A DNA stretch of 30,170 nt, taken from positions 1 through 30,170 of the IMG/VR virus record IMGVR_UViG_3300042691_011935. One strand, 5' to 3'. A model generated the notes under the pieces. The model was given only the letters and a program-made list of their open reading frames with translations. It did no database searches and was not told where the DNA came from. A program made the position numbers and the translations under genes. Shown one piece after another: positions 5,506 through 23,775 of this stretch; position 1 is the first letter of the stretch; every line of letters begins with the position of its first letter. Source of the DNA: a virus.

Positions 5506-6034
5506 CAGCTTTAAATTCTGAATCTGGCAATTTAGCTAATTTTTTAATATCTAATTCAGAATTAAATGTAAGATTGGTTTTTGATACAGGAACATATTCA
5601 GCATCTTCTTGAATAGCTTCAGCAAATTCAGGAAGACCAATTACTGCTCTTACACCTACAGAACCATCTTGTTTAATATATTCTTCACCACGAAACTTAA
5701 TTCTCAAAGAATTACCTGCCAGTTTATTATTGTAAACTTCACCTAACTCTTCAACACTATTAGCTTTTGAAGAAAGATAATCAGCATCTTTTACTACTTT
5801 AGTAAAAATATGTCTGATCTTCTTATATGAAACTACTGCTGCTTTTTCTGAAAGATAAAATCTAAAATCAGTAGTTGCTTCTGCATCACCATCTACTAAA
5901 TGCATTGAAAATACAATAGTAGGATTACCATTTTGATTTGTTTCACCTTTAACAGATTTAATTGTTACTTCATGTACACCTGGCCTAATATATTTAGGCT
6001 TATTTACTTCTTGAACATCTTGTCCACCAAACAT
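5480..6034 (-). CDS. Putative single-stranded DNA-binding protein with SSB-type C-terminal tail
   Basis: Probable ssDNA-binding protein of 184 aa. The N-terminal two thirds alternate beta strands (HEVTIKSVKGETNQNG, TIVFSMHLVDGDA), in keeping with an OB-like fold. The C-terminus ends DNSGLPF, which matches the acidic, Pro-Phe-terminated tail that SSB proteins use to recruit partners (E. coli DDDIPF). It lies directly between the Sak4-like ATPase and primase genes, where phage SSBs are common. There is no strong sequence signature for the OB fold itself, so the call rests on the tail and context. Confidence 0.68.
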   Translation of the reverse strand: MFGGQDVQEVNKPKYIRPGVHEVTIKSVKGETNQNGNPTIVFSMHLVDGDAEATTDFRFYLSEKAAVVSYKKIRHIFTKVVKDADYLSSKANSVEELGEVYNNKLAGNSLRIKFRGEEYIKQDGSVGVRAVIGLPEFAEAIQEDAEYVPVSKTNLTFNSELDIKKLAKLPDSEFKAGDNSGLPF

Positions 6035-6055
6035 AATTTTAATTTTTTAATTTTG

Positions 6056-6781
6056 TTATATAAATATTTTATCCCAATTACCTTTTAGATTATTATCTAC
6101 AAGTTCAGTTAGAATAATTTCTTGATTTTTAAGGTGATCAGGTCTTGCACCACAAGTTACTTCTTCTGAAGTTTTAAAGTTTAAACTTACTTTATCACCT
6201 TTTCTGCTCAATAGAGCAATAGCATCTGCTTTAGCACATACAATAGATTTAATCTTACCTGACAAATCTAAATCAACAGCAGATACTTCTTTACCATTTG
6301 TTTCCAGCATCTTATCTTTCAAATGACCTAATAGAATTAGACTACCATCATTTGGTATCAATGTTTCTATATAGTCAAGAATCTTAAAGAATGCTTCACG
6401 CAGATACATATAACCTGCGCCATTAGGTAATTTAAGTACATTGTCACCAGCAAAGTTTTTACCCATTGGAGTATCTTGATATAAAGTTTTTGCATATCCT
6501 ATGCACATTTCTTCCAATGCTGTTACAGTATCTACTGCAATGTACTTATATGGTTTATTAGCTTTTATAATTTCTTGACCAATAGCTTTTAATGTAGCAA
6601 GACTATCAACTTTTAATTTCATAGCTTCTACATAATCAGAACCATTCTCAAAGTCAAGAATTAAACAGTTATCTAATAAAGCCAAAGCTGATGTTTTACC
6701 AGCTTTAGGCTTTGAATAGATAACCAATCTTTTAGGATTAGCTCTTACAGGAGCTATCTTAACAGTTGGTAATTCAATCAT
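6056..6781 (-). CDS. Sak4-like RecA-fold ATPase (single-strand annealing recombinase)
   Basis: A RecA-core P-loop ATPase of 241 aa, typical of phage Sak4 proteins that pair ssDNA together with an SSB. Walker A is SKPKAGKTS (23-31). Walker B is in YKYIAVDTVT (about 79-88). A later strand reads SLILLGHLKD, followed by KADAIALLSRKGD, the usual ATP-sensor region. The adjacent downstream gene encodes an SSB-like protein, the known functional partner of Sak4. The stop overlaps the upstream gene arrangement by 4 nt (ATGA at 6778-6781). An AAA-type replication factor is the main alternative. Confidence 0.82.
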   Translation of the reverse strand: MIELPTVKIAPVRANPKRLVIYSKPKAGKTSALALLDNCLILDFENGSDYVEAMKLKVDSLATLKAIGQEIIKANKPYKYIAVDTVTALEEMCIGYAKTLYQDTPMGKNFAGDNVLKLPNGAGYMYLREAFFKILDYIETLIPNDGSLILLGHLKDKMLETNGKEVSAVDLDLSGKIKSIVCAKADAIALLSRKGDKVSLNFKTSEEVTCGARPDHLKNQEIILTELVDNNLKGNWDKIFI

Positions 6782-22741: not shown

Positions 22742-22989
22742 TGTTAATAATTTAATTTTGTTAAAAATAGAGCATGCTTGGAAACTTAATCCACTACACC
22801 ATATACCTCTCTATTTAGGGCCATCAAGTCTAACTTGATAACGCATCCACCAACTAACACCCCTGTTAGTATTTTAATGAGGAAGTTCCAACTAGTTCAA
22901 TCCTATTCTAGAAATCAGATGTAACTGTTGGTGCATGACTAAGCTCTACATTAATCCTCATTGTTTAATCTTTTTCTACCTGTGTTTTG

Positions 22990-23089
22990 TAGTCAGGACA
23001 GGATTCGAACCTGTATGATAAGTAATTTTAAGACCATATTGTAAACCTATCTTATTGTGGTCAGCGTCTACCAATTCCGCCACCTGACT
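22990..23089 (-). tRNA. tRNA-Leu-like sequence with aberrant anticodon region
   Basis: The acceptor stem AGTCAGG/CCTGACT is perfect with discriminator A. Positions 8-9 are TG, the D-arm GCGGAATTGGTAGACGC is typical of tRNA-Leu, and the T-arm ACAGG-TTCGAAT-CCTGT is perfect. The region between D- and T-arms is 49 nt instead of about 31 in the window's normal tRNA-Leu. No 5 bp stem with a 7 nt loop forms. Instead GACCA pairs TGGTC across 21 nt, and GATAGGT could pair ACTTATC in a pseudoknot. CTTAAAA, a Leu(UAA) anticodon loop sequence, is present but without a stem. It may be an inserted, decayed or specialised tRNA mimic. Confidence 0.6.
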
Positions 23090-23266
23090 GTTTTGCTCTT
23101 TATTCTCTTACCCTTTTATATCAGAGCTAACCTGCTTATCTATAAGAATGTATCCGATGATACTCCGTCCTAAGTTAATAGGACTTCCACTTCTGAGTGT
23201 GGACCCTTTCTTAATAATACGAGTTTTTCAAGGGTACAGGTTATTTGAGGATGAGAAGTCCTCTTG

Positions 23267-23355
23267 TGGACCCGATGAGATTCGAACTCATGTATCTCAC
23301 ATAATTTCAATTAAGTTTCTACAAGTTTAGGTACACAATTTTTCTTCATGTGTCC
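23267..23355 (-). tRNA. Degenerate tRNA-like sequence (intact T-arm)
   Basis: The T-arm ATGAG-TTCGAAT-CTCAT (23275-23291) is perfect, followed by CGGGTCC and discriminator A. The 5' strand GGACACA pairs with it at five of seven positions. Positions 8-9 are TG, and the D-region (GAAAAATTGTGTACC) is a distant match to a Leu-type D-arm. No anticodon stem can be drawn. It is probably a tRNA pseudogene or the tRNA-like part of the larger RNA. Confidence 0.45.
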
Positions 23356-23452
23356 AGCTGAATATTTAGTTTAATTTTGCCATCAAACTAACAAAGTGGG
23401 AGGTTCACTTTTAATCTGGCAGCACCCTAAACGAGGCCAGTTTTGTACTTAT

Positions 23453-23575
23453 TTAGACTAACTCAAGTACAGGAGTTTCAACATCATTAAATGATGCTAC
23501 AAGGTCTGCGATGGCAGACTGACCTACTAGATCAGCCTTAGTGCCAAGTTCAATAGAGTTTCCAACTATTGTTAC
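23453..23575 (-). other. 40-codon open stretch with protein-like composition, no start codon
   Basis: Inside the structured region a frame stays open for 40 codons to a TAA. It reads VGNSIELGTKADLVGQ followed by SAIADLVASFNDVETPVLEL. It is less AT-rich than its surroundings and looks like real protein, but has no ATG and is preceded by two TAG codons (23576-23581). It overlaps two of the hairpins. Options are a fragment of a lost gene, a recoded gene, or chance. Confidence 0.35.
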
Positions 23576-23667
23576 CTACTAATTATTTAAGTCCACACAT
23601 TATTAGGCAAAGGACTACTTGCTTGTTAATATTCACTATATGAGGCATATCCTTTCGGGCCCAATTA

Positions 23668-23775
23668 TTATTTAATTTGCAAAAGTACAACACATTTTCT
23701 TTTCTTCCAAATTGTATAATGCAAAATAAATTGATCATTAACTTCATCATAGTCAATATTCCAATTGAATATCAT
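23668..23775 (-). CDS. Possible small protein, 35 aa
   Basis: An ATG-started frame (MIFNWNIDYDEVNDQF, ending LLQIK) with ordinary composition, 76 nt after the tRNA-Leu. Against it, the best promoter of the region (23680-23711) lies within its 3' half and no coupling with other genes is seen. Confidence 0.35.
   Translation of the reverse strand: MIFNWNIDYDEVNDQFILHYTIWKKRKCVVLLQIK
23680..23711 (-). promoter_or_regulatory. Bacteroidota-type promoter for the structured RNA region
   Basis: On the minus strand TTTG (23711-23708), a 20 nt spacer, then TACTTTTG (23687-23680). This is a full match to the -33 TTTG / -7 TAnnTTTG consensus. Transcription would begin near 23672, at the start of the gene-poor, hairpin-rich stretch. 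Confidence 0.65.

Follow-up and report, generated by a model that had tools for sequence, protein, structure and literature searches.

Array of small RNAs between tRNA-Leu and a hydrolase-like gene

The DNA between a tRNA-Leu gene and a small hydrolase-like gene of the virus record IMGVR_UViG_3300042691_011935 (positions 22766-23672 of the window, the 30,170-nucleotide stretch analyzed here) is an array of separate small RNAs and not one RNA. We consider it highly probable that these are small stable RNAs of the minus strand and that the main gene among them is a working phage tmRNA. All the evidence was drawn from sequence, and the IMG/VR contigs are fragments.

The upstream neighbor of the interval is an ordinary tRNA-Leu (UAA) at 23933-23851 on the minus strand, and the hydrolase-like gene lies on the other side at 22741-22430. 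An earlier note on this DNA had seen no good gene between the two. We likewise found no plausible gene in 22766-23672, where the single open reading frame of at least 60 amino acids is 60 amino acids long and lies on the opposite strand. The comparison of folding energy with shuffled sequence, which the note had proposed, showed that the minus strand of the interval folded better than shuffled sequence (z -3.53, 0/20 shuffles), whereas the plus strand did not (z -1.19). The interval is thus a structured, promoter-proximal non-coding region beside a phage tRNA, as the note had described it. In the series of hairpins it had drawn on the transcribed strand, the 5' 400 nt turned out to be a full tmRNA. 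Among isolated phages, the only homologues of the interval were of the tRNA-Leu.

A Bacteroidota-type promoter motif, TTTG-N20-TACTTTTG, is matched perfectly at 23711-23680 on the minus strand, and the tmRNA starts 17 nt further on. The -7 part of the motif is kept in L039 (TAATTTTG), which is closely related to the window phage. Since the whole window holds 2 such motifs with 2.1 expected by chance, the promoter that the note had seen pointing into the stretch is present but backs the minus-strand direction of transcription only weakly. The phage hosts are probably Bacteroidota, judging from only the promoter type and the tmRNA similarity. L039 also carries a Hatchet ribozyme (60.6 bits) at positions 870-1001.

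The tmRNA gene

Using cmscan, we found a one-piece tmRNA (ssrA) at 23662-23264 on the minus strand, which matched RF00023 over the full model length (model 1-374) with 63.1 bits (E 1.4e-22), above the curated cut-off of 47 bits. ARAGORN did not call this gene. The acceptor stem, GGGCCCG/CGGGUCC, has the G3-U70 pair found in alanine tRNAs and is followed by A73; CCA is not encoded. The T arm is AUGAG-UUCGAAU-CUCAU with a UUCRANY loop, and the tRNA-like domain has no anticodon stem. All 20 phage tmRNAs that we compared had the G3-U70 pair; the remaining acceptor pairs varied with pairing preserved. Pseudoknot PK1, AGUCC/GGACU plus CCUAAU/AUUAGUAGG (23616-23575, minus strand), was read from the sequence and aligns with RF00023 at the model's first pseudoknot. 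It lies upstream of the resume codon, and the resume site also aligns with RF00023, with GGA in place of the usual GCA.

Homologues of the window tmRNA were found in L044, L045, L056, L057 and L036, and in L036, L044 and L045 the gene shares its position beside an SSB-like gene. No tmRNA match was found in the records of the relatives nearest in DNA polymerase (77-79% identity), two of which are about 92.5 kb long, so the tmRNA gene is either dispensable or a recent gain or loss. None of the 17 records searched encodes a phage SmpB, and host SmpB would therefore serve the phage tmRNA.

Two other phage tmRNAs were noted. In L187 (8193-7609, minus strand), the 3' end of a tmRNA at 8193-7832 runs into a group I intron (7837-7609), overlapping its start. 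In L255 (4017-12854), an array of 25 phage tRNAs has a tmRNA at 5724-6218, and the gaps between its tRNAs may hold more tRNA-like RNAs.

The tmRNA tag is long

In the RF00023 alignment, the tag frame of the window tmRNA (23563-23453, minus strand) starts at the resume codon GGA and runs for 36 codons to UAA. The encoded tag is GNSIELGTKADLVGQSAIADLVASFNDVETPVLELV, with the C-terminus PVLELV. The tags of L044, L045, L056 and L057 are of the same GNT...PVLELV form with exactly 36 codons each, and the distant relative L036 also has 36 codons (ANNNNISDESRTFADKVEAMVIAFAPVAEKEVVLAA). The tag ends in LELV in the window and its four closer homologues and in VLAA in L036. The Ala-Ala type of degron end, a usual but not defining trait of tmRNAs, is thus absent from the window tag. 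Between the window tag and those of L044, L045 and L056 there were 7-9 amino-acid changes, compared with 11-15 expected when the same substitutions were placed at random (p 0.001-0.017), which shows, as far as sequence comparison goes, purifying selection on the tag frame. The GGA resume codon and the missing Ala-Ala could also mean that the tag is drifting.

Host tags are much shorter. In 119 bacterial loci, nearly all from Bacteroidota, ARAGORN called 93 tmRNAs, and 86 of the 93 had tags of 9-10 residues, typically GENNYALAA; the 36-residue tag is four times as long. The 23 phage tags that were read had 21-45 residues (median 30), with starts set by alignment and by eye that may be off by 1-2 codons. 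A tmRNA above cut-off was found in 15 of 50 scaffold-bearing phage records (described below), a count without a matched control, and the 2.3% of PMC9004378 refers to another collection and another program. The readable tags of this set, for which only candidates with small or hydrophobic residues at the end were admitted, had 21-32 residues. Five further phage tmRNAs, at loci with the hairpin motif described below, had tags of 30-45 residues. The exact DNA of the window tag was not found in bacterial genomes, nor did we find the long-tag class described in the open-access literature. ARAGORN called 3 tmRNAs among the viral loci and missed most of the phage tmRNAs reported here. Phage tmRNAs appear to be undercounted because standard tools miss them.

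It was considered that the phage tmRNA may act as an inhibitor or decoy, its tRNA-like domain taking SmpB or EF-Tu from the host tmRNA and its tag being secondary. Mycobacteriophage DS6A has a TLD-only tmRNA, and such molecules inhibit tmRNA, perhaps by SmpB titration (PMC4131195); the phage encoding no SmpB would also fit. However, PK1 and the tag region are kept in full and there is purifying selection on the tag frame, neither of which a decoy would require. We judge a decoy to be unlikely and favor a working tmRNA.

Anticodon-less tRNA-Leu scaffold with a proposed pseudoknot insert

Further along the minus strand, at 23089-22988, the array contains a tRNA-Leu scaffold in which a predicted pseudoknot takes the place of the anticodon arm. 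The scaffold has the acceptor AGUCAGG/CCUGACU, a Leu-type D arm, the T arm ACAGG-UUCGAAU-CCUGU and A73. In the insert, helix S1 (GACCA/UGGUC, 23062-23058 with 23036-23032) is crossed by helix S2 (GAUAGGU/ACUUAUC, 23051-23045 with 23023-23017). Compared with the tRNA model (RF00005), the acceptor, the D arm with GG and the T arm are all present, and the 5-bp anticodon stem with its 7-nt loop is absent. Neither Rfam nor ARAGORN gave a match to 23089-22988.

The T arm and acceptor pattern occurred in at least 119 stretches in IMG/VR. Among the matches listed, 89 had a matching 5' acceptor strand, and 42 of these 89 (in 39 contigs) had a Leu-type D arm, a feature that the search pattern did not include. 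Several copies were found in single phages, and the inserts of the 42 members were very different in length and sequence. The inserts of the window, L003, L005 and L040 aligned no better than shuffled sequence, and the SSB-like proteins encoded next to them are about 80% identical or more. When the inserts were grouped into 38 clusters and compared with dinucleotide shuffles, the helix ending at the T arm was stronger (p=3.6e-6) and a helix crossing this T-arm-anchored helix, which makes a pseudoknot, was enriched (p=2.5e-4), whereas serial and inner helices were not (p=0.35 and 0.44). In one insert family of 10 contigs, the same T arm followed the insert in 10/10 and the full scaffold was present in 9/10. 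Under the proposed structure 99% of the cells of this family were paired, and the crossing helix, D stem and T stem showed two-sided changes, which amounts to modest covariation. A second copy of the window's own pseudoknot insert was not found. As judged from these alignments and shuffles, the tRNA-like part belongs to a widespread RNA family with a statistically supported pseudoknot.

On the other hand, the element might be a tRNA-Leu of the normal kind that has a small intron or whose anticodon loop is unusual. The Leu-type D arm would be expected of such a tRNA, and among the 42 members ARAGORN called 9 as tRNAs with an assigned anticodon and 3 as tRNAs with an undetermined one. Standard anticodon arms, however, could be drawn in 12/42 inserts (29%) compared with 23% of shuffled inserts and were not enriched, whereas the crossing helices were, and the inserts could not be aligned between close phages. 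A normal tRNA is therefore an improbable reading, and we treat the element as a scaffold carrying a pseudoknot.

The scaffold RNA was not found in 296 Bacteroidota genomes, and a scaffold query against isolated phages gave tRNA genes and weak matches. The earlier note had allowed for a new RNA family: this holds for the scaffold part, for which we found no description of a tRNA-pseudoknot RNA in the open-access literature, but not for the tmRNA part, which is RF00023.

Two other tRNA-like RNAs were also observed. A very short tRNA-like RNA on the minus strand of L056 (9787-9710) and L057 has AGUCAGG/CUGACU ends in common with the scaffold and an anticodon stem, CCUAA/UUAGG, that closes on a 3-nt loop. 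In L048 (7597-7685), an anticodon-less tRNA-like RNA with another acceptor, AGUCAAG/CUUGACU, adjoins a tRNA-Arg.

Other elements of the array

The remaining elements are also on the minus strand. Directly past the tmRNA 3' end is a spacer hairpin, GAGGA-CUUCUCA-UCCUC (23263-23247), with 21 nt identical at L004 2644-2664, ahead of a tRNA-Arg. It is followed by a multi-branched structured RNA (23242-23129) with the outer stem AACCUGU/GCAGGUU and four inner hairpins. The fold of 23110-23245 had a z of -4.10 (0/200 shuffles), no homologue of the domain was found, and the domain may be one more of the variable RNAs in the block. Past the scaffold, a hairpin domain closed by AAUGAGGA/UUCCUCAUU (22962-22876) did not fold significantly (z -1.27). 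The 3' block element (22869-22815) consists of a GGGG-loop hairpin, UUAGUUGGUGGA, a second hairpin and CCUAA; it has homologues just past the tmRNA in L044 and L056 and, by reading, in L045 and L057. No other Rfam family matched the non-tmRNA part of the interval.

The array ends with a tRNA-like hairpin motif (22816-22765) that has the core GUGUAGUGGAUUAAGUUUCCAAGCA and a covarying stem. At 13 viral loci the 25-nt core is invariant, and 7 of the 9 stem pairs show two-sided changes. The covariation score was 0.67; shuffles gave 0.24, and sliding gave no more than 0.38. The motif lies directly upstream of a tmRNA in L320, L322, L323, L325 and L326. The two embedded tRNA-like segments of the earlier note thus correspond to this hairpin and to the scaffold without an anticodon arm.

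That the block is a decayed, non-functional remnant of tRNAs or a tmRNA, as the note had also allowed, is scarcely tenable: close relatives lack the tmRNA and the tRNA-like pieces look odd at first sight, but the tmRNA is intact and conserved among four to six related contigs (five related phages have an intact acceptor and T arm and an open tag, and show compensating changes), the hairpin covaries, and the pseudoknot recurs with statistical support in the tRNA-like RNAs. A single large ornate RNA of 0.9 kb, GOLLD/ROOL-like or new, would suit the size, the tRNA neighborhood and the whole-interval fold (z -3.5), but it is a very remote prospect, with the Rfam models of GOLLD and ROOL unmatched even at E<=1 and the units of the interval separate and in other orders in relatives.

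Proposed roles and significance

tmRNA is charged with alanine and bound by SmpB, rescues stalled ribosomes and tags the released proteins. By analogy with all tmRNAs, we infer that the phage tmRNA is expressed, charged and active in rescue: it would be charged with alanine, be bound by host SmpB and, in the course of infection, enter ribosomes that have stalled on broken mRNAs. Rescue would then add the phage-specific 36-residue tag ending in PVLELV. In E. coli the terminal Leu-Ala-Ala decides tag strength, and in Mesoplasma the tag is read by Lon (PMC9097571). Because the phage tag has no terminal Leu-Ala-Ala, the tagged proteins may be spared or rerouted. We infer from the long tag without Ala-Ala a fate other than the host ClpXP route; the tagged proteins might go to another protease such as Lon or might not be degraded.

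For the scaffold RNA, processing by RNase P and RNase Z and addition of CCA would produce a stable carrier, and the insert would be the active part that binds a variable target. Since inserts are swapped freely between phages, processing and stability are the most likely purpose of the scaffold, with the insert as the active part. We would guess at a role against host defense, type III antitoxin-like or otherwise anti-defense.

The chances seem evenly balanced for a broader proposal: that phages of probable Bacteroidota hosts carry widespread, undescribed anticodon-less tRNA-Leu scaffolds, each with a different pseudoknot insert, often together with phage tmRNAs, that the long and fast-evolving tags of these tmRNAs send rescued proteins to a different fate, and that scaffolds and tmRNAs form an arms-race RNA toolkit built of tRNA parts. 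With the tRNA-pseudoknot RNAs, the tRNA scaffold would gain a new natural use, that of carrying variable RNA modules, and these RNAs could account for many of the unannotated gaps within phage tRNA arrays. The tags are unlike those of the hosts, so that phage use of ribosome rescue to alter protein fate in infection becomes a testable idea.

Comparison with known systems

A phage tmRNA is a known kind of gene, and the long tag type is what is new here. The long tag of Bxz1 was not used as evidence. Phage tmRNAs have been reported in 10 named phages (PMC4131195), in 402 of 18,146 genomes by ARAGORN (PMC9004378) and, together with SmpB, in huge phages (PMC7162821). Those of Mycobacterium phages such as Bxz1, Bacillus phage G, Melnitz and the huge phages are complete genes and often tRNA-adjacent, as here, but they were found by standard tools, whereas the present ones mostly escape ARAGORN. 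The annotated tag of mycobacteriophage GenevaB15 (AADVAADYAAVGA, 13 aa) is of ordinary length, in contrast to the 21-45 aa of the present phage tags. Bacteroidota chromosomal tmRNAs share the overall fold, but their tags have 9-10 aa and are of the GENNYALAA type. The 5' end pattern used for these host tmRNAs, which is biased to Bacteroidota, came from the relative L036.

Mesoplasma and Mycoplasma tmRNAs also have long tags. They set a precedent for a tag that is read by Lon and largely escapes E. coli proteases (PMC9097571), but they are bacterial and unrelated in sequence to the phage tag. GOLLD and ROOL are phage RNAs near tRNA islands (PMC12286853); the setting is alike, but neither sequence nor structure matches.

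The tRNA scaffold RNAs of biotechnology and the tRNA-like domain of tmRNA resemble the scaffold RNA at 23089-22988: the acceptor, D and T parts of a tRNA are kept, and another RNA stands in for the anticodon arm. Unlike both, the present scaffolds are natural and Leu-type, and they carry variable pseudoknot inserts and no tag frame.
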